Shown in pieces: positions 4,086 to 27,816 of a stretch of 27,816 bases of DNA. The position numbers and the translations under genes were made by a program. Source of the DNA: a virus; the IMG/VR virus record IMGVR_UViG_3300018019_000030, positions 1-27,816 of that record; one strand, 5' to 3'. The notes below the pieces were generated by a model. It was not told where the DNA came from. It searched no databases and saw nothing but the letters and a program-made list of their open reading frames with translations. The number at the start of each line of letters is the position of its first letter. Position 1 is the stretch's first letter.

Positions 4086-4289
4086 CTAACTCCCGCTGAC
4101 CAGTTCGCCATGCTCGTCGTAACTGCGGCTGACGACGGCGAGACCTGCGCGCGCCGGCGACGCGTAATCCACTTTCGCCAGATCCGCGGCGAGCTGCGCG
4201 GCCGGCGTGCCGAACGCTTGGGCGAGCGGCACGATTTCCAGCGATGCTTTTGCGCCGCGCGCGAGCGCACGCCGTTCTTTGCGCGTCAT
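4086..4289 (-). CDS. Small hypothetical protein between connector and portal genes
   Basis: This 67-aa protein has a basic N-terminus (MTRKERRALARGAK) and a neutral helical middle. I recognise no family. The ATG at 4289 lies one base after the gpW-like stop codon, and the stop lies 6 bp before the portal start, so it fits tightly into the packaging/head operon. A small gene of this type is common at this position in alphaproteobacterial prophages. A role in head completion is only a guess from position. The alternative frame at 4076-4270 is less protein-like and overlaps the portal. Confidence 0.6.
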   Translation of the reverse strand: MTRKERRALARGAKASLEIVPLAQAFGTPAAQLAADLAKVDYASPARAGLAVVSRSYDEHGELVSGS

Positions 4290-4290
4290 T

Positions 4291-4512
4291 TCAAAACACC
4301 ACGTTGATCGCGCCGCGGCGCCGGTCGCGGCCGTGAAGCTGGTCGCGCAGCAGATCGACGTAAGCGCGCAGCTCGTTGATCTTCGGCGGGGTAAACTCGG
4401 TCGATGACCCGTCGCTCAAGCGCACGCTGACGAACGCCTCGCCGATCTGCAGCCGGTGCAGTGCGTTCTCGGCCTGGCGCAGGCGCTCGACGATCTCCGG
4501 AGTGAACGTCAT
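4291..4512 (-). CDS. gpW-like head-tail joining protein
   Basis: This 73-aa protein begins MTFTPEIVERLRQAENALHR and contains a G-rich beta-hairpin-like region near 24-36 followed by a helix (INELRAYVDLLRDQL). Size, helix-hairpin-helix pattern and position directly after the large terminase match the gpW family. Those proteins plug the portal after packaging and form the tail attachment surface. The ATG at 4512 lies 3 bp before the terminase stop region, and the next gene follows after 1 bp. Confidence 0.75.
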   Translation of the reverse strand: MTFTPEIVERLRQAENALHRLQIGEAFVSVRLSDGSSTEFTPPKINELRAYVDLLRDQLHGRDRRRGAINVVF

Positions 4513-4515
4513 CGC

Positions 4516-6468
4516 TCACAGCCCCTTGTTCAATGACGCGAGCTGCTCGAAATAGCTTTTTTGTTCGCCCGCGTTTGCCGCCGGCGCCGGCGCCTCCACC
4601 GGCAGCTCCTCGGCGCTCACGCCCCGCGCGATCGCGCGCGCAGCCCAATCGTCGGCCTTGAAGCTCGTGAAATAGGCGTGCGCGCCGGCGATGTTGCCGA
4701 CGCGGCAGTCGAGGAAGTGATTGTCGCGGTGCGGCCGCTGCTTCCAAGTCTTGCGCTTGCGGCCGCGGAACACACCGTCCTCGAGATATTCCGAGGTGAT
4801 CTGCTTGAAGTAGTTCTCGTCGAGGAAGCGGCCGAAGTGGCAGAAGCCCGGTGGGAACGTGAGGCCGGCGCCGTCGGCGATCGGCATCAGCGCCGCATAG
4901 GTATAGAATTTCGACTTCAGCGGCCAGGTGCCCATCAGGCGGAGCTTGGCGCCGCCTTTGATCTTGCGGCCGCGGTAATCGATGTCCTGGTCGGTGGCGA
5001 TCCCGAGCGGCACTTTCGACCAGCCGTCGTCGCCCTTGGTCGCCCTGGTGCCGGGATGCCGCCGCGTCCACTCGTAGACGACGTCGGTGCGATAGCCGGA
5101 GTCGATCAGGAACTCGTCGGCGCGGAATTTGCGGCCGTTGGTGTCGGGCCACTCGCGCTCGTAGAGCTTTGTGAGCTCGGCGAAGGCGCCGGCGTCGACT
5201 TCGGTGGTCGAGCCGTCGAGATAATCGGCGAAGATGGTCCAGCTCTGCTGATCGGGTGCGAACGCCACCACCTCGACATAGATGCCGCGCATCTGCACGT
5301 CGGCCGAGACGTTGACGAGGAGCGCACCGGGCGGAATCACCTCGGGCGGATAATCCTCGCGCCGCTGCATCAGCAGCTCGTAGTCCGGTGCATCGACGGC
5401 GACGTTGAAGGGTAAGCCCAGCGTGAGATTCCAGAAGGTCTTCAGCTTGGCCGGGTCGTTGCCGGCGGCGACGTAATCCGCGGCGATGCCGTCCCAGGTG
5501 GAGAACGGCGCCGAGAGCTCATCGAAGTGATAGGACGGATATTTGCCCGGGCCCGGCGCGGTCGCAACCCATCGGCCGGTGCGGTAGACGGCGACCTTCT
5601 GCGCGCTCTCGATGACGCCGCCGCAGCATCGCGCGACGTAATAGGCCTGGTGCGGGAAGGTCTTCTTGAATTTGAGCCCGTGCGTCGTCGGATCATAAGG
5701 CGCATTCCACTCCAGCACGATGCGCTCTTTGCAGTGCGGGCAGTCGACGTGCCAGCGGCGCTGGTCGCCGGCGGCGTGTTTTTCCTCGATCTTCGAGGCG
5801 TCCTGGATGACCGGCGTCGAGACGTAGGCGCGTTTCCAGGTGCCCGAGGCCTTGAACGATTTTTGCCCGCGGGCGACCAGCGAGAGCGGATCGCCCTGGC
5901 CGTCGAGGTCATCCTCGTATTCGTCGACCTCGTCGCACAGCGCCTTCTTCGCCGTCAGCATGCGCAGGTTTGCCGGCGAGGAGGCGAGCAGCAGCGACAA
6001 CGAGCCGCGCGGAAATCTCTTTTCGTAGGTGGTCGAGCCGGCGGCCGAGCGCGACGACTGCGGATAGACCTTGTCGCGGAGCGGCGCGGTCAGTTCGATC
6101 ATGCGGCCGAGCTTGATCGAATTGAACTTGCGCAGCGCCACGTCGGTGGGCTGCACCACCACCATGTCGCAAGGGTCGCGGTCGATCGAATGGCCAATGG
6201 CGCATAAGAGCATGGTGGTGAAGGCGGTCTGTCCCGACTTCATCACCGCGATTTCGTTGACCGGCGCGTCCGGCCCGAGCATGTCCAGCGGCTCGACAAT
6301 GTGCGGCGTGCGGCGCAGGTCGATCTTCTCGCCGGCATATTCGCCGTCCGGCAGCACCGCAAATTCGGCCGCCCAGGCCGATGGCGCGATCGGCGCCGCC
6401 GGCGCGAAGTGGGCGGCGAGCGTGCCGCCGACGATGGCGCGCGCCGAGTGGATGTATTCGAGCCTCAT
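4516..6468 (-). CDS. Terminase large subunit, gpA family
   Basis: This 650-aa packaging ATPase and nuclease has the full family length. An N-terminal ATPase domain carries a deviant Walker A (MKSGQTAFTT, 76-85) and a Walker B (ALCDEVDEY, 176-184). A zinc-binding cluster follows, with Cys243/Cys246 and Cys281/Cys282. The C-terminal nuclease region has candidate metal ligands Asp390 in VSADVQ and Asp456 in FLIDSGYRT. These are hallmarks of the lambda gpA-type terminase (terminase_GpA), which cuts concatemers, usually at cos, and drives DNA into the procapsid. The start ATG overlaps the small-subunit stop (ATGA). Confidence 0.95.
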   Translation of the reverse strand: MRLEYIHSARAIVGGTLAAHFAPAAPIAPSAWAAEFAVLPDGEYAGEKIDLRRTPHIVEPLDMLGPDAPVNEIAVMKSGQTAFTTMLLCAIGHSIDRDPCDMVVVQPTDVALRKFNSIKLGRMIELTAPLRDKVYPQSSRSAAGSTTYEKRFPRGSLSLLLASSPANLRMLTAKKALCDEVDEYEDDLDGQGDPLSLVARGQKSFKASGTWKRAYVSTPVIQDASKIEEKHAAGDQRRWHVDCPHCKERIVLEWNAPYDPTTHGLKFKKTFPHQAYYVARCCGGVIESAQKVAVYRTGRWVATAPGPGKYPSYHFDELSAPFSTWDGIAADYVAAGNDPAKLKTFWNLTLGLPFNVAVDAPDYELLMQRREDYPPEVIPPGALLVNVSADVQMRGIYVEVVAFAPDQQSWTIFADYLDGSTTEVDAGAFAELTKLYEREWPDTNGRKFRADEFLIDSGYRTDVVYEWTRRHPGTRATKGDDGWSKVPLGIATDQDIDYRGRKIKGGAKLRLMGTWPLKSKFYTYAALMPIADGAGLTFPPGFCHFGRFLDENYFKQITSEYLEDGVFRGRKRKTWKQRPHRDNHFLDCRVGNIAGAHAYFTSFKADDWAARAIARGVSAEELPVEAPAPAANAGEQKSYFEQLASLNKGL

Positions 6469-8438: not shown

Positions 8439-8543
8439 TCAGCGCGGCGAAATCAGCAGTTCGTGAATCTTTTTCACGCCTTTTTGGATGCTGCGCCGCG
8501 CCGCACGATAGGTCGCCGATGGCCGCGGTTGTTTGCTGCTCAT
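8439..8543 (-). CDS. Tiny basic ORF coupled to the recombinase gene
   Basis: This is a 34-codon ORF, MSSKQPRPSATYRAARRSIQ onward, with many Arg and Lys residues. Its ATG at 8543 overlaps the recombinase stop codon (ATGA) and it ends 37 bp before the Tat-signal start. Coupling and basic character suggest it may be a real DNA-associated peptide, for example a recombination helper. It is short enough to be chance. No family recognised. Confidence 0.4.
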   Translation of the reverse strand: MSSKQPRPSATYRAARRSIQKGVKKIHELLISPR

Positions 8544-9613
8544 AGAAAATCCTTCCCGGCGTGATCCTTGAACAGCCCGGCGCGACGGTCGTAGGCGCGC
8601 AGCGTGTCGACGTCGCGATGCCGCGTGACACGCATCACCGAGAAGAAGTCGGCGCCGCGCTCGAGCGCCGAGGTAACAAACCCCGCGCGCATCGAATGTC
8701 CGGAATAGATTGCATCATCAAATCCGGCGGCCGCCGCGTAATGCTTGACGATTGTCGCCACCGAGCGGTCGGTGAGCCGGCCACCGATTCGATTGCCTTT
8801 GTCGATTGAGCGGAAAACCGGGCCCTCGGCGATCGCTGCGGCCTCGAGCCATTCCTTCAGCGCCGCGACGGGCTTAAGCTTCTTGCCGTTCGGTATGGCG
8901 ATCTGGGCGCCGGCGCCTTCTTGGTCGGTCTTCGAGACGCGCACGTGCACGATGACGCCGCGCTCGACGAATTCGAGATCGGCGACGTCGAGCGCGACCA
9001 GCTCGCTTCGACGCAACGCGGCTGCGAAACCGAGCAACAGCAGCGCCCGATCGCGGAGAGCGCGAAGGTCCGGCGCCGGTTGATCAGCTGATGATGATTC
9101 CGAAATCAGTGATTTAGGAATACGAGATCGCCGCGGCGCAAGCATCCGCGAAAGGCTCTGCGCCGTCGCCGGCGCCTTGCGCGTCACGGCGACACCGATC
9201 TTGCGGCGGATGCCCGAGAGCACCGCGCGGACCGTCTCAGCATCGCTGGGCGGGACTAAGCCTTTGAGTTTGTGAGCATACGCTACCGCAGCCAGGCGCC
9301 GCCTGATCGTCGAGACTTTTTTCCCGGCGTCGGCAAGCTGCGCGAGGTAAGTAGCGAGAGTCGTCGGCGCCGCTGGCAGCGGACATAGGCCAACGCCGTC
9401 GCACCATCGGGCGAAATCCGCCCAATCAGCACGATAAGCGCGTCGCGTGGCCTCAGATTTGGAAGCTGCGGCATAATCGCTCGCCGATTGCAGCGCGTCG
9501 GTTAGCGCCGGATTGGTTGATCGCCGAGCCAGTACGTCCGTGGTCTCGGCGACCAGGACCGGCCGATCGGTGACGACCGGCAGATCCGTAGGGGTCATGG
9601 GGCCAGCCCCCAT
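8540..9613 (-). CDS. Tyrosine recombinase with complete catalytic set
   Basis: This protein is up to 357 aa; an ATG 5 codons in (9598) is an equal candidate start. It has an N-terminal SAM-like core-binding domain at about 37-150 (SEATRRAYRADWADFARWC). The catalytic domain carries Arg201 (AALRRSELVAL), Lys228 (VSKTD), His306 and Arg309 (GHSMRAG), His332 (VTRHRD) and nucleophile Tyr341 (LRAYDRR). All six expected residues are present, so it should be active in site-specific strand exchange. It lies far from the tRNA end of the prophage, between early genes and morphogenesis genes. Its target could be an element-internal site, a resolution site, or an old second integration event. Palindromes lie directly upstream. 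Confidence 0.93.
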   Translation of the reverse strand: MGAGPMTPTDLPVVTDRPVLVAETTDVLARRSTNPALTDALQSASDYAAASKSEATRRAYRADWADFARWCDGVGLCPLPAAPTTLATYLAQLADAGKKVSTIRRRLAAVAYAHKLKGLVPPSDAETVRAVLSGIRRKIGVAVTRKAPATAQSLSRMLAPRRSRIPKSLISESSSADQPAPDLRALRDRALLLLGFAAALRRSELVALDVADLEFVERGVIVHVRVSKTDQEGAGAQIAIPNGKKLKPVAALKEWLEAAAIAEGPVFRSIDKGNRIGGRLTDRSVATIVKHYAAAAGFDDAIYSGHSMRAGFVTSALERGADFFSVMRVTRHRDVDTLRAYDRRAGLFKDHAGKDFL

Positions 9614-22310: not shown

Positions 22311-23584
22311 AGGCCTCCGCGGCGGATAGCGCGTTTGCCCGCGCGATGGGCAATCGCCGTTTCGGACAGCAGGCGGCAGTGCCGGCGCGCCCGGCGCCGC
22401 GTGCGGCAGCTCCGGCACTTGTGCCCGCTTTGCGCCCCGGCGATATCCACATTGGCGACGCCGACGACGGAGCGCCGATCGGCATCGACCTGGCCAAGCT
22501 GATCGACGGCCGTTTTCTGATCCAGGGCGTCTCCGGCGCCGGCAAATCCTGGTTGCTTCGTCGGCTGGTGGAACAGACCGCCGGTCTCATCCAACAGATC
22601 GTGGTCGACCCGGAGGACGAGTTCGGCAATCTGGCGCAGAAGCTCGGCATGGTGCACCTGCAGGCGCACCTCCTTGACGCCGCCACGCTCGAGGCCGCCG
22701 CCGCGCGCGCCCGCGAGCATCGCGTTTCGCTCGTGGTCAATTTCTCGCACCTCGAACGCGAAGACCAGATGAAGGCCATGGCCGCCTTCGTCCCGGCGCT
22801 GGTCAACGCGCCGCGCGAGCATTGGCATCCTTGTCTGGTCGCGGTCGACGAGGCGCAGCTATTCGCGCCCTATGGCGGCGTCAGCGAAGCGCCATTGGTG
22901 CGCAAGGCCTCGATCGCGGCGCTGATCGATCTCGCCAACCGCGGCCGCAAGCGCGGGCTCGCCTGCGTGCTGGCGACTTTGCGCCTGGCGCGGCTGGCAT
23001 CGTCGGTGAAGGCCGAGGTCCTCAACATGATGATCGGGCTCAATACGCTCGATCGCGACATCCGCAGCGCCGCGGAAACCATCGGCTGGGATGCGCGGCG
23101 CGCCTTTGACCGGCTGCCGCTGCTCGAGCCGGGAAATTTCGTCGCGGTCGGCCCGGCGTTTTCGCGCTCACCGGTCATGCTCAAGGTCGGCCCGGTGCAG
23201 ACGCAGCATCGCGGCGCGACGCCGGCATTGGCTGCGCCGCCGGCGCACGATCGCCGCGCGGCGGCCGAGCTCCTCGAGATCGACGAGCTCGTCGACGCCA
23301 GCGCTGCGGACGCGCGTTTGCGCGAGCAGCATGCCCGGGCGCCCGGTTTGCGCCAGATCCGCGCCTTCATCCGCGACGAGGCGTTCGCCGATTGCGGCCG
23401 CGTGTGGGGCGCGCTGCGCAAGGTCGCGCCCGATGGCGCGAAGATCTGCGATCTCGCCAAGCACCTTAATCGCAAGCCTGACGACATCGGCGCGGCGCTG
23501 GCGCTGCTCGACAATTACGGCGCGGTGGAATTTTCCGGCGATGGCGCCACGCGCGCGGCGCGCATCGCGGAGGACATGCTGTGA
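22307..23584 (+). CDS. HerA/FtsK-like P-loop ATPase
   Basis: This 425-aa protein has Walker A GVSGAGKS at 74-81, the DPEDEFGNL motif typical of HerA/DUF87 ATPases at 101-109, and Walker B CLVAVDEAQ at 176-184. A region LANRGRKRGLACVLATLRLARL, where the arginine finger is expected, and a C-terminal winged-helix-like tail (ICDLAKHLNRKPDDIGAALALL) follow. HerA-type enzymes are hexameric DNA translocases that work with nucleases in end processing or genome packaging. A phage version in the recombination operon, followed by a DNA-binding protein, suggests DNA movement or end processing. No nuclease is adjacent. Confidence 0.82.
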   Translation: MKASAADSAFARAMGNRRFGQQAAVPARPAPRAAAPALVPALRPGDIHIGDADDGAPIGIDLAKLIDGRFLIQGVSGAGKSWLLRRLVEQTAGLIQQIVVDPEDEFGNLAQKLGMVHLQAHLLDAATLEAAAARAREHRVSLVVNFSHLEREDQMKAMAAFVPALVNAPREHWHPCLVAVDEAQLFAPYGGVSEAPLVRKASIAALIDLANRGRKRGLACVLATLRLARLASSVKAEVLNMMIGLNTLDRDIRSAAETIGWDARRAFDRLPLLEPGNFVAVGPAFSRSPVMLKVGPVQTQHRGATPALAAPPAHDRRAAAELLEIDELVDASAADARLREQHARAPGLRQIRAFIRDEAFADCGRVWGALRKVAPDGAKICDLAKHLNRKPDDIGAALALLDNYGAVEFSGDGATRAARIAEDML

Positions 23585-24432
23585 GCGGGCTCGCGCGCGT
23601 CTCCTTCAAAACCGGTCGCGCGCGCCTGCCGCGGTTATCGCCGCCGCGCGTCATCGGCAAACAGGCGAGCCATTGGTGGACCGACGCCGAGAAGAAGATC
23701 ATCAAAAAATATTATCCAAAAGGCGGCAGCCACGCCTGTCTCGCTCACCTCGGCCCTCACCGCACCCCAAGTGGGGTCTATCAGCAGGCGTGCAAGCTCG
23801 GCCTGACCACACCGCACGGCGCCGCCGACTATAAGGGCGAAAACGGCCGGGTCGTCGCGCCGCCGCGTTTCGACGATGAGCTACGCGCGTTTTATCAGAA
23901 TGGCGACGGAAAGAAGCGCGGCGAATGCAACGCGTTTGCCGACAAGTGTGGACTGCCGCGCTGGTGGGTGACGAAGCGTGCCACGAAGCTCGGCCTGGTC
24001 ATGCCGCACAGGAAGGAGCCGCCATGGACTGTGGCCGAGGTCAGGCTCGTCGGCAAGGTGCCGCTGCACGATATCGACAAGTGCGCGAAAATCTTCCGAC
24101 AGCACGGCTTCGCCCGGTCGCCGACGGCGATCAAAGTCAAGGCGACCCGGCTCGGCATCTCGCGGCGGTTCAACGAAGGCTGCTCGCTGAGACAGGCGAG
24201 CGAGATCGTGGGCTTTGATAGCAAGAACTTCGGCACGATGGTTGCCAAGGGCGAAGTCAAGGCCAGGCGCCGCGCCGACAGACGTTTGCCGCAACAGGGC
24301 GGTTCGCGCTGGATCATCAAGCCCGCGGATCTGCGCCGCTTCGTGCTCGACAATCTCGACCGCATCGATCTGCGTAAGGTGGAGAAATTTGCCTTCGTGC
24401 AGCTGATCGCCAACGAGAGACTATCGCCATGA
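23581..24432 (+). CDS. Multi-domain Myb/SANT-like DNA-binding protein
   Basis: This 283-aa protein has a GTG start overlapping the ATPase stop. It has repeated HTH-like units, each with an aromatic start: WWTDAEKKIIKKYYPKGGSH (about 32-51), WWVTKRATKLGLVMP (about 127-141), then WTVAEVRLVGKVPLHDIDKC and TAIKVKATRLGISRR. A possible fourth, MerR-like unit follows (LRQASEIVGFDSKNFGTMVA) near 200-220. It is very basic. It is likely the DNA-targeting partner of the HerA-like ATPase, from gene order. No catalytic residues seen. Confidence 0.7.
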   Translation: MSGLARVSFKTGRARLPRLSPPRVIGKQASHWWTDAEKKIIKKYYPKGGSHACLAHLGPHRTPSGVYQQACKLGLTTPHGAADYKGENGRVVAPPRFDDELRAFYQNGDGKKRGECNAFADKCGLPRWWVTKRATKLGLVMPHRKEPPWTVAEVRLVGKVPLHDIDKCAKIFRQHGFARSPTAIKVKATRLGISRRFNEGCSLRQASEIVGFDSKNFGTMVAKGEVKARRRADRRLPQQGGSRWIIKPADLRRFVLDNLDRIDLRKVEKFAFVQLIANERLSP

Positions 24433-25137: not shown

Positions 25138-25688
25138 CCGCGCGGCCGCTCACCGACGCCGAGATTGCGGCAGCGAAGTTTGTTCGGCGCATGAAGGCGC
25201 TCACAATTTGGCAGCCATGGGCATCACTGATCATTGTCGGCGCCAAGCCCTACGAGTTCCGCGGCTGGGATTTTCGCATCCGCGAGCCCGAACTGGTCGG
25301 TGTGCGCGTTGTCATCCACGCCGGCGCGCGGCCGGTGAAACTGATCGAGGTCGAGGATCTGTTGCGACGGCTCGGCGGCGACGACGATATGACCGGCCTC
25401 GTGGTCGACAAGGCACGGCAGCTGCTCGAGCGAGTACGCGACGCCTATAAATGCCGCCTGCTTCCGCTTTCCGCCGGCCTCGGCACCGCGATCATCGGCC
25501 GGCCGCGCAATGCCGGCATCATTTTCGGTGCCAATGTCGCTGACAGCGATCGCGGCGCCTTCAATTTTGCCTGGCCGCTTTCCGACGTGCGCGCGTTCGA
25601 CACGCCGATTCCGGCGCGCGGCGCGCAGGGCTTCTGGACCTGGCCCTATTCGATACCCGGGGAGGCTGCCCGTGGCGATGCGGCATAG
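25134..25688 (+). CDS. ASCH-domain protein
   Basis: This protein is up to 184 aa. An internal ATG at 25191 gives MKALTIWQPWASLIIVGAKP, the canonical ASCH start, so residues 1-19 may be an extension. The motifs MKALTI.QPWA.LI..G.K..E.R, VVIHAGARPV and GTAIIGR fit ASCH (PUA-like) domains, which bind RNA or nucleotides and in some cases act as nucleases or hydrolases. The Lys in GAKPYEFR and the Glu are kept. The role in this phage is open; ASCH proteins are common in phage accessory regions. Confidence 0.8.
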   Translation: MTARPLTDAEIAAAKFVRRMKALTIWQPWASLIIVGAKPYEFRGWDFRIREPELVGVRVVIHAGARPVKLIEVEDLLRRLGGDDDMTGLVVDKARQLLERVRDAYKCRLLPLSAGLGTAIIGRPRNAGIIFGANVADSDRGAFNFAWPLSDVRAFDTPIPARGAQGFWTWPYSIPGEAARGDAA

Positions 25689-25962
25689 GCGCGAGGCCGG
25701 CGACGTGCCGCCGATCATGGCCGCCTACCATATGGGCTGCGCCTCGCTGGCGGAGTTCGAGCAGAAGCTCCCTGCCCTGCTCGGCCGCGGCTTCCCGGCG
25801 CCCGACGAGACCACCGGCAATTTCGATCTCGACGCGATCAAGGCCTGGCGCCGCTCGCGTCATCCACAGCTTTTCCCTTCCGATCGCTTGCTCGTCGGCC
25901 CGACTGCGCGCGACGCTAGAGACGTCGTGCCCGGCCGGCTGGCGAGGATTCGCGGTGGGTGA
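25672..25962 (+). CDS. Excisionase/AlpA-like winged-helix protein
   Basis: This 96-aa protein starts at GTG 25672, with GGAGG 6 nt upstream (an ATG 2 codons later is also possible). The segment MAAYHMGCASLAEFEQKLPA, then GRGFPAPDETTGNFDLDAIKAWRRSRHP, fits the MerR-like winged helix found in AlpA/Xis proteins next to integrase genes. Such proteins bend attachment DNA and direct excision. Its stop overlaps the recombinase start, giving the usual xis-int arrangement. Confidence 0.72.
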   Translation: MAMRHRREAGDVPPIMAAYHMGCASLAEFEQKLPALLGRGFPAPDETTGNFDLDAIKAWRRSRHPQLFPSDRLLVGPTARDARDVVPGRLARIRGG

Positions 25963-27184
25963 CGTGAAAATCCGGTACTACGTCACGCGGCAGCGGCCGG
26001 GAGCCCGCAAGTGGGGTTATTGGGCGCCTTGCCTCGCCCGCGGCGGCAAGCCGACGCTGATGGCCAAGCTCGGCTTCAAGATGGTCGACTGCGGCGAAGA
26101 CGGCCCATACGCCTGGGCGATCGCTCATCAATGGAACGAGCGATGGGATATTGCCCGGGCGAAGCTCGCAAAGGGCGAGACGCCGGAAGTACCGGCAAAA
26201 ATGGAGAGGATATTCCCGGCGGGCAGCCTCGGCGAGGCGTTCGCCCGCTTCCGCGGCACAAAGACCTGGCTGGAGAAAAAGCCTCGCACCCGCGAGGACT
26301 GGCTGCGCGGCTTCAAGCACATCGACCCGATCTTCGGCGACGTCGATCCGAAAACCGTCTCGCTCGAGGATCTCGACTCTTGGTATGCGGCGCTGCTCGC
26401 CGCCGTCGGCATTCGCGAGGCACACCGCGCTATGAAGATCTGGCGCGCGCTATGGCGCATCGCCGGCACGCTGAAGACAGGGCGCGGCGGAAAGTATTGC
26501 GAGCGCGACCAAGATCCATCGCTCGGCATCCGTCGCAAGACGCCGAAGCCACGCAATGCCATCTGGTTCGAGGGTGAGGCCGTGCGCCTGGTCAAGCGCG
26601 CCTGGCGCATGCGCTTTCGCGGCCTCGCCGCCGCGCTCGCGGTCGCCTGGGACTCGATGCTGTCGCCGGTCGACGTGCGCACGCTGACGCCGGCGCAATT
26701 GCGGCGCGACGCGCGTGGGCCGCTGTTTACGCTCGATCGCACTAAGACCGGTGCCCCGGCGATCGCCACGCTCTCCAAGCGCACGGCGCGGCTGCTGGAG
26801 GGCTATCTCGCCACGCTGCCGACACTGCATCCGGATGCGCCGATTTTCCGCACCCGCGGCCACGCCGCGGGCCCAGGGCGGCCGCGGCCGCCGGTCCCTT
26901 ACACCGCTGACACGCTCGGCGACGATTTCCGTGCCGTGCGCGAAGCGGAGTTTCCGGGCGACACGCGCCAGCTGATGGATTTCCGCCGCTCCGGTTCCGT
27001 CGAGGCCGAGGCCGGCGAGGCCGACGAGCGCGGGCTCGCCAAGAAAATGGGCAACACCATCGATAGGAACCGCGCGCTGCGGAACACCTATTTGCCGCCG
27101 AACGCGACGGTGGTGCGGCTCACCGACGAAGCCCGCGTGCGCGGCCGGCGCCGCTTGCGCGAGAGCGGGAATGATCGAAAATGA
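25955..27184 (+). CDS. Divergent tyrosine recombinase (integrase) lacking several catalytic residues
   Basis: This protein is 409 aa; the start is GTG at 25955 or 25964. It has an N-terminal domain at about 5-72 (IRYYVTRQRPGARKWGYWAP), a core-binding domain at about 90-170 and a catalytic domain at about 205-385. Aligned by pattern to integrases, the first Arg is Ser237 (SMLSPVDVRTL). Lys264 is kept (TKTG), HxxR is Met341..Arg344 (LMDFRRSG), the second His is Asn367 (KMGNTI) and Tyr379 is kept (NTYLPP). Three of the six usual positions are therefore altered. It lies beside the tRNA-Asp end with an excisionase-like gene upstream, so it is the probable integrase. Either the family uses other residues, or it is a DNA-binding relic and another enzyme does the chemistry. 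Confidence 0.82.
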   Translation: MGDVKIRYYVTRQRPGARKWGYWAPCLARGGKPTLMAKLGFKMVDCGEDGPYAWAIAHQWNERWDIARAKLAKGETPEVPAKMERIFPAGSLGEAFARFRGTKTWLEKKPRTREDWLRGFKHIDPIFGDVDPKTVSLEDLDSWYAALLAAVGIREAHRAMKIWRALWRIAGTLKTGRGGKYCERDQDPSLGIRRKTPKPRNAIWFEGEAVRLVKRAWRMRFRGLAAALAVAWDSMLSPVDVRTLTPAQLRRDARGPLFTLDRTKTGAPAIATLSKRTARLLEGYLATLPTLHPDAPIFRTRGHAAGPGRPRPPVPYTADTLGDDFRAVREAEFPGDTRQLMDFRRSGSVEAEAGEADERGLAKKMGNTIDRNRALRNTYLPPNATVVRLTDEARVRGRRRLRESGNDRK

Positions 27185-27753
27185 CTGAGCGCATCCCCTA
27201 TTACCGCGTCCTCGGCAAAAAGGACCATGCCTATTGGTGTCCGAACAAGCGCATGCGTTCGCTCGGCTTCGAAATGCAGGCCCTCGGCATTGCCGGGCCT
27301 GCGGCACAGGCGGCTGCGCGCGAACTCAATGCGAGATGGCAGACCGCGCGCAAAGAAAGTCCTGCGCGCCTCGGCGTGCGCGCCCCATCCTTGCAGGCGC
27401 CCGAGGCCGATGTTCACTATGTATATTTTCTCATTGCTGGTGATCGCATCAAGATTGGCGTGTCGCGGACGCCTATGTCCCGGGTTGCTGACGTTGCCCT
27501 TGGAGCGGCTGATCGCGTCCGCGAGGTGCTCGTCGTACCCGGAACGCGCGCCGACGAGAAAAAATTGCACCGGCGGTTTGCCAGCTATAGGACGCGGGGC
27601 GAATGGTTCGTCGCGAACCGGGCCCTCCAGCTCACGATCATGCGTTGTGCGGCCGCCGGCGCGGTGGTGCACGACGGGCCCGAATCCGGAACGAATAATG
27701 GGCTTGGAGTCGAATCACGGGAGGGGGTACCGCTTGAATCACATGCCGTCTAA
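27181..27753 (+). CDS. GIY-YIG (MUG113/T5orf172-type) nuclease with recombinase-like N-terminal domain
   Basis: This protein is 190 aa and overlaps the recombinase stop (ATGA). Residues about 80-150 form the GIY-YIG-type domain: VYFLIAGDRIKIGVS with KIG at 91-93, Arg101, Glu126 and His130 (ADEKKLHRRF), GEWF at 140-143. All key positions are present. Residues about 5-57 (IPYYRVLGKKDHAYWCPNKR, SLGFEMQALGIAGP, ARELNARWQTAR) match in order the N-terminal domain of the adjacent recombinase. The shared domain suggests both bind the same DNA sites, presumably attachment-site arms. A 40-residue tail has no features. It lies 14 bp from the tRNA-Asp 3' end. Confidence 0.8.
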   Translation: MTERIPYYRVLGKKDHAYWCPNKRMRSLGFEMQALGIAGPAAQAAARELNARWQTARKESPARLGVRAPSLQAPEADVHYVYFLIAGDRIKIGVSRTPMSRVADVALGAADRVREVLVVPGTRADEKKLHRRFASYRTRGEWFVANRALQLTIMRCAAAGAVVHDGPESGTNNGLGVESREGVPLESHAV

Positions 27754-27767
27754 GTTATTGAGATTGC

Positions 27768-27816
27768 TGGCGGGAGCGACGGGACTCGAACCCGCGACCT
27801 TCGGCGTGACAGGCCG
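27768..27816 (-). tRNA. tRNA-Asp(GTC), 3' half only (cut by window edge); probable attachment site
   Basis: The minus strand reads an anticodon arm with GTC in a CTGTCAC loop, then the T-arm GCGGGTTCGAGTCCCGT and an acceptor end GCTCCCG with CCA at 27768-27770. These are standard tRNA-Asp features; the 5' half is beyond the window. Its 3' end faces the integrase gene, which is the classic prophage attachment arrangement. The matching att repeat must lie left of the window. Confidence 0.85.

Follow-up and report, generated by a model that had tools for sequence, protein, structure and literature searches.

The right end of this viral sequence raises the question of why an integrase with an altered active site should lie against its attachment site together with a nuclease whose gene overlaps its own and whose N-terminal part resembles its own. 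The window, meaning the whole 27,816-base virus record that was analysed, had been read in the original prediction as harboring a degenerate tyrosine recombinase and a nuclease that together might form a non-standard integration or excision system. The comparisons presented here point to another answer, which we regard as reasonably probable: the two proteins would do different jobs but use one kind of address, one being a working integrase and the other a chimeric, arm-directed nuclease, either of the homing type or domesticated.

The attachment sequence was considered first. The attP core occupies positions 27768..27816, 49 bases whose minus strand carries the 3' part of a tRNA-Asp (GTC), and the window stops at the far edge of this core. 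A 53.4-kb contig, IMGVR 3300025432_000001, aligns with the window and runs past its right end into phage DNA. Because phage genes lie on both sides of the core in this contig, the sequence is an attP core and not a host tRNA gene. The predicted tRNA-Asp site is next to the integrase; the window holds the 3' part of the tRNA only. In integrated relatives, att repeats of 47-56 bp match this core, and several metagenome contigs carry the same integrase and core at 99-100% DNA identity. A motif, CTAAGTTATTGA (27750..27761, with no strand assigned), has variant forms that adjoin the core in many relatives. A CTAAGYNATTGA-like motif adjoins the att core at 27750-27761 of the window and to the left of the core in L027, L034, L128 and L204, and it occurs across elements with tRNA-Asp, tRNA-Glu and tRNA-Arg cores.

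On the other side of the integrase, a small plus-strand gene (25678..25962), whose stop overlaps the int start, encodes a putative excisionase-like DNA-binding protein, a function assigned by its position; a Pfam search with this gene gave no match, and a gene resembling it holds the same position in L009. The 2.1 kb at 22326-24425 of the window is missing from the 53-kb contig and from the matching L003 and L007 sequences, in which 22325 joins 24426 directly; this is an insertion or deletion between strains.

The integrase gene (25955..27184, plus strand) encodes 409 aa. As predicted, Ser237, Met341 and Asn367 stand at the Arg I, His II and His III positions of the RKHRH pentad, while Lys264, Arg344 and Tyr379 are kept. 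Arg262 is present as well. Pfam gave no match to this protein at E<=1, PF00589 included, and PF00589 weakly matches some of its relatives. The AlphaFold model (46 sequences, pLDDT 88) consists of an N-terminal domain, a core-binding domain and a catalytic domain in the fold of lambda-Int, Cre and Tn1549, with Z values of 16-18 to Cre, Tn1549 integrase and lambda integrase (17.2 vs 1z19 and 16.7 vs Tn1549 integrase); Foldseek matches agree with this fold. Its N-terminal domain (residues 1-72; 25955..26170, plus strand) is of the arm-binding type and comprises E9-12, E20-23, H35-38, E44-48 and H51-72 in the AF2 model.

Relatives of this integrase are encoded at sixty-odd loci in Hyphomicrobiales genomes and viral contigs; curated phages and curated plasmids yielded one homolog each and no more. 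Among 53 distinct homologs, position 237 is never Arg (Ser 45, Ala 6, Asn 1, Gln 1), position 341 is variable, with His in 5 of the 53, and position 367 is Asn in 51 of 52. Tyr379 (52/52), Lys264 (52/53) and Arg344 (52/52) are conserved, Arg262, Arg338 and Arg345 are likewise essentially invariant, and Arg242 is nearly so. Since the residue changes are fixed across these homologs, they represent a trait of the lineage. The substitute for Arg I is probably another basic residue, with Arg262, two residues before Lys264, and Arg242 as the candidates. A degenerate integrase, as had been proposed, or a dying one, is ruled out by the family-wide substitutions and by the clean att repeats that relatives possess.

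These repeats were found in 10 integrated relatives for which both ends were extracted, and the evidence comes from them, not from the window phage itself. All 10 elements, spanning about 10-71 kb, are bounded by exact 47-56 bp direct repeats over the 3' part of tRNA-Asp, and in each the tRNA is intact at one end only. In most relatives with sequence beyond the gene, tRNA-Asp lies 20-150 nt downstream of the integrase gene, and in L038 a tRNA-Arg does. MUG113 was present inside the att bounds in G010 only, a Methylobacterium genome with the pair, and was not detected in the other nine. PF00589 was absent, among the matches listed, inside the bounds of seven; a canonical second recombinase was listed only in G007, and the weak matches in G008 and G012 are the integrase itself. 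Because these relatives have att repeats, nine of the 10 without detected MUG113 and most without a canonical recombinase, the nuclease appears unnecessary for integration. The window integrase would thus be functional, an arm-binding enzyme of the lambda type from a family of Hyphomicrobiales prophages that insert at tRNA-Asp, and its active site is altered yet conserved.

It had been suggested that integration or excision might involve the nuclease, which would nick or cleave att DNA while the recombinase binds it or achieves partial catalysis. The overlap of the two adjacent genes at attP, the DNA-binding domain that they have in common and the loss of Arg I, His II and His III would agree with this, but same-family integrases insert with clean att repeats in the absence of the nuclease, and there is little or no variation at the nucleophile Tyr379 or at Lys264/Arg344. 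We found nothing in favour of nicking as a step of the process, nor of a defective recombinase that needs the nuclease; a direct role of the nuclease in integration fits poorly, and we consider it very improbable.

Just as little credit, or slightly less, is given to the explanation that the odd integrase merely binds DNA, without catalysis, and that another recombinase integrates. The window phage does have a complete, canonical tyrosine recombinase (8540-9613, minus strand; PF00589, 56 bits), which lies among the late genes, and the structural matches of the odd integrase include SroF of phage phi3T, a repressor with the recombinase fold. However, in addition to the seven att-bounded relatives, the L009 contig, the L055 contig and a Rhodoplanes plasmid all keep this integrase with PF00589 absent among the matches listed, and in most relatives without such a match the tRNA-Asp core is no farther than about 150 nt from the integrase gene. 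PF00589 matches also occur in the L052 and L060 contigs. The plasmid, NZ_LR026982 of Rhodoplanes serenus (L015), is a 53.8-kb circle, and as it carries the same integrase family and the tRNA-Asp core, it may be an integrative element or phage in circular form. In L039 (G014:C11), the tRNA-Asp att sequence is found in three direct copies, at 266052, 269429 and 334737, which suggests a second 3.4-kb element or remnant adjoining the prophage.

Short repeats that resemble arm sites surround the core. The sequence GGAGTCGAATC, a putative arm-type site recognized by its repetition, lies at 27706..27716 (plus strand) within the 3' end of the nuclease gene. Across 38 kb of the window phage it recurs in exact form only at -62, +27 and +68 of the core, and these three copies all fall within about 120 bp of the core. 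A repeat of the window branch, GAGTCGAA, is located at about -54/-77 and +40/+82 in L009 and at nearby positions in L052, and other branches have arm-like repeat pairs of their own, for example AAAAGTTGGAAC in L034 and AAAAAGTCTGAAC in L024 and L031. Repeats on both sides of the core correspond to the layout of a lambda-like arm-binding integrase, and they are probably its arm sites.

The next gene (27181..27753, plus strand; 190 aa) encodes a GIY-YIG (MUG113/T5orf172) nuclease, in agreement with the original prediction, and its start overlaps the int stop by 4 nt (ATGA). PF13455 (MUG113) matched with 39.6 bits vs a cut-off of 22.3, and PF10544 scored 19, just below its cut-off of 20. In the Pfam alignment, the catalytic domain (residues 80-150; 27418..27630, plus strand) contains YVY, KIG, Arg101, Glu126, His130 and GEWF, and the GIY-YIG motif residues are conserved between the window nuclease and its Methylobacterium homologs. 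NCBIfam searches gave no match, and a profile search found no solved relatives of the nuclease. Its AF2 model is weak (2 sequences, pLDDT 65) and had no significant match in the PDB. A known defence family was ruled out by PADLOC, which matched neither the nucleases nor the integrase.

The first 60 residues of the nuclease (27181..27360, plus strand) form an integrase-type N-terminal domain, as indicated by sequence, profile and model comparison, and the resemblance noticed earlier between the two proteins was borne out. The two-sequence comparison gave E=0.004, and 0 of 5000 shuffles attained the observed score; the profile-profile comparison gave a probability of 99.8% and E=3e-30. When the N-terminal part was compared with 10,451 six-frame ORFs, the best match (E=1e-13) was to same-family integrases, and the matches were integrases and nucleases of this type. 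Both AlphaFold models show the order strand-strand-helix-strand-helix. This domain of the window nuclease shares 47% identity with the N-domains of the L024/L063 integrases, which belong to another branch, 42% with that of the Methylobacterium nuclease and 34% with that of the integrase beside it.

The pair is not confined to the window. A GIY-YIG nuclease with an integrase-type N-domain was found between int and the tRNA att sequence in five lineages, and in four of them the N-domain matches the neighbouring integrase, through three unrelated domain types (A, B and C); in the fifth, a type A domain stands next to an integrase of another kind. Because a home-made recombinase profile lacked the sensitivity to find the integrases of the survey loci, we compared N-domains within each locus, asking which other ORF resembles the part before the GIY domain. 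The neighbouring integrase was matched in the window (about 1e-5), Methylobacterium (about 1e-23), G337/L139 (about 1e-3) and G243/L129 (about 1e-11). The other MUG113 loci tested gave no integrase match, and L205 gave one short overlap with a non-integrase. The three types have no mutual similarity above shuffles, and pairs within a type are alike, the weakest being that of type B, whose score was attained by 2 of 5000 shuffles. The kind of targeting domain at the attachment site is thus common to both proteins, as had been supposed, and the arrangement is recurrent, but a nuclease-dependent integration or excision built upon it is unsupported.

In the Methylobacterium lineage, the 4-nt overlap and the tRNA-Asp are the same as in the window and the nuclease N-domain is 52% identical to that of its own integrase; the nuclease gene is intact in L083 and has an in-frame stop in L032/L072. 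G337/L139 has a different integrase N-domain (KYLR...YYRRPG...IRL) and a tRNA-Glu; its integrase is frameshifted, and the last 53 nt of int lie within the start of the nuclease gene. A direct repeat, CTGTCCCAAG, stands at both ends of this nuclease gene and, in L128, at -589 and -50 from the tRNA-Glu core; these repeats are possibly arm sites split by insertion of the nuclease gene. G243/L129 has the third N-domain (KPPRLWLR...WIIKD...RTG), and its nuclease starts about 230 nt after int and is followed by a 3' tRNA fragment. In G962/L204, a 54-kb prophage whose ends carry tRNA-Arg(TCT) repeats 42 bp or more in length, the nuclease has the window-type N-domain (A) and the resident integrase has a different one; its att flanks hold GTCTGAA repeats, whose likeness to the arms of L024/L031 is suggestive only.

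Nucleases bearing N-domains of these types were absent from curated phages and plasmids. A DNA pattern for YVYFLxxGDxIKIG, applied to 2.9 million viral contigs, occurred only in those that belong to the window phage, to the Methylobacterium pair or to the G337 type, the pattern being exact and missing variants such as G962. L192, which has a GIY-YIG gene with a type C-like N-terminus near the contig end and no integrase in view, was left out of the lineage count. GIY-YIG domains with a helix-turn-helix, excisionase-like N-part are encoded directly upstream of the integrase in L079 (5251-5802), L130 (4199-4987, minus strand) and L217 (int at 4183-5316), and these possibly use the same trick with an excisionase-type domain.

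It might be supposed that the nuclease hitchhiked into the att region by chance and that the resemblance of its N-domain to the integrase is functionless. Cargo genes do gather at att-proximal positions, the arrangement was found in five lineages only, one nuclease copy has a stop and one locus has a broken integrase. Passive capture is nevertheless improbable in view of the recurrence with three unrelated N-domain types and the neighbour match in four lineages. Moreover, two Methylobacterium copies of the nuclease differ at 36 synonymous vs 8 non-synonymous codons, which suggests constraint on the gene.

One clade (96/95) unites the GIY domains from the window, Methylobacterium, G962 and G337, whose N-types are A, A, A and B, and the G243 domain falls elsewhere. 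Since one nuclease clade bears differing N-domains, these domains seem to have been swapped. The simplest history would be that a single nuclease lineage residing at int-att junctions underwent an exchange of its targeting domain (A, B), and that C arose separately, there being at least one such further origin. Nuclease presence requires two separate changes on the integrase tree, and the close relatives of the window lack the gene; such sporadic presence at one site among close relatives is a trait of homing endonucleases.

We therefore return to the reading of two proteins with one kind of address. The chimeric nuclease would join a GIY-YIG cutter to an arm-binding domain of the integrase kind, and this fusion should lead it to the arm-type sites that surround attP. 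It is predicted to cut attachment regions that lack the nuclease gene, or those of rival phages. Most likely it is a free-standing homing-type endonuclease, or was domesticated from one, and stands outside the recombination machinery. Homing would agree with a gene that is sporadically present, lies next to its likely target and has decayed in one copy. A role against rival phages would agree with those N-domains that resemble other integrases more than the resident integrase. As the window N-domain is nearer to other integrases and that of G962 is unlike the resident integrase, the target may be the site of another phage. A nuclease that binds its own attP must somehow spare it from cutting. 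Gene order, domain homology, recurrence, att repeats, arm-like repeats and sporadic presence are read from the sequence itself, whereas it is inferred that the nuclease binds and cleaves DNA and that it serves homing or exclusion. The small number of lineages (five only), the frameshifted G337 integrase and the weak AF2 model of the nuclease weigh against an arm-directed nuclease.

An unlikely though more serious competitor is that the nuclease is a regulator. Its N-domain would vie with Int for arm sites and determine when, or in which direction, recombination proceeds, cutting being secondary or lost. The common arm-binding domain and the translational overlap would suit such a role, and a survey notes that I-TevI, also a GIY-YIG protein, doubles as a repressor (PMC10448857). 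Conservation of the GIY-YIG residues between the window and Methylobacterium genes weighs against this role, as does the G962 nuclease, which is unlike its own integrase. Going beyond the arm-directed nuclease of this locus, we tentatively propose that attachment-directed nucleases could be a recurrent class in temperate phages, in which integrase arm-binding domains aim a GIY-YIG nuclease at the attP arms of competitors for the same tRNA. Such a class would arise by repeated fusion and domain swapping and would police the occupancy of attachment sites.

Integrases, GIY-YIG homing genes and chimeric nucleases are already known. A nuclease with an integrase arm-binding domain beside an integrase of the same domain, in several lineages, was unnamed in the literature searched, which lay mostly outside subscription journals. 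It would be a simple recipe for a site-aimed nuclease, combining the integrase's own grip on attP with a cutter. If confirmed, it would link homing genes, prophage competition for tRNA sites and integrase specificity, and would offer natural pairs for reading and testing arm-binding specificity.

The window integrase shares with lambda integrase the three-domain heterobivalent layout, the position of arm sites, putative in the window, on both sides of the core, and the fold. Lambda Int has the full catalytic set, unlike the window integrase, and to our knowledge it has no GIY-YIG partner. The integrase of CTnDOT (IntDOT) is active without Arg I, whose role is taken by another Arg downstream (PMC8138268). 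It resembles the window integrase in being an arm-binding tyrosine recombinase that lost Arg I, but it belongs to a Bacteroidetes lineage, and the window family also lacks His III (Asn) and usually His II. The substitute Arg of the CTnDOT integrase probably lies two residues before the catalytic Lys, like Arg262 of the window integrase. The window family clearly illustrates how an integrase may seem active with Arg I, His II and His III all missing.

GIY-YIG/T5orf172 domains are described as typical of phage homing genes in the survey (PMC10448857), and the window nuclease is like free-standing homing endonucleases of this kind in its nuclease family, sporadic presence, insertion between conserved genes and decayed copies. 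The same survey reports zinc-finger domains in 87% of its T5orf172 genes, and also RepA_N, and differs from the present case in that its accessible part names no integrase arm-binding domain (PMC10448857). The closest parallel is Odn (Gp88) of the Vibrio phage ICP1, a T5orf172/GIY-YIG nuclease placed behind the RepA_N domain of a satellite, which cuts replication origins; the borrowed DNA-binding domain redirects the nuclease to a key site of the other element (PMC8263062). Both are chimeric, with the nuclease domain behind an N-terminal domain from the DNA-binding protein of another element or from another protein. The window nuclease differs in that its domain is that of an integrase, its gene adjoins the likely target, and its activity is predicted; by the logic of Odn, it should be led to the attP arms.
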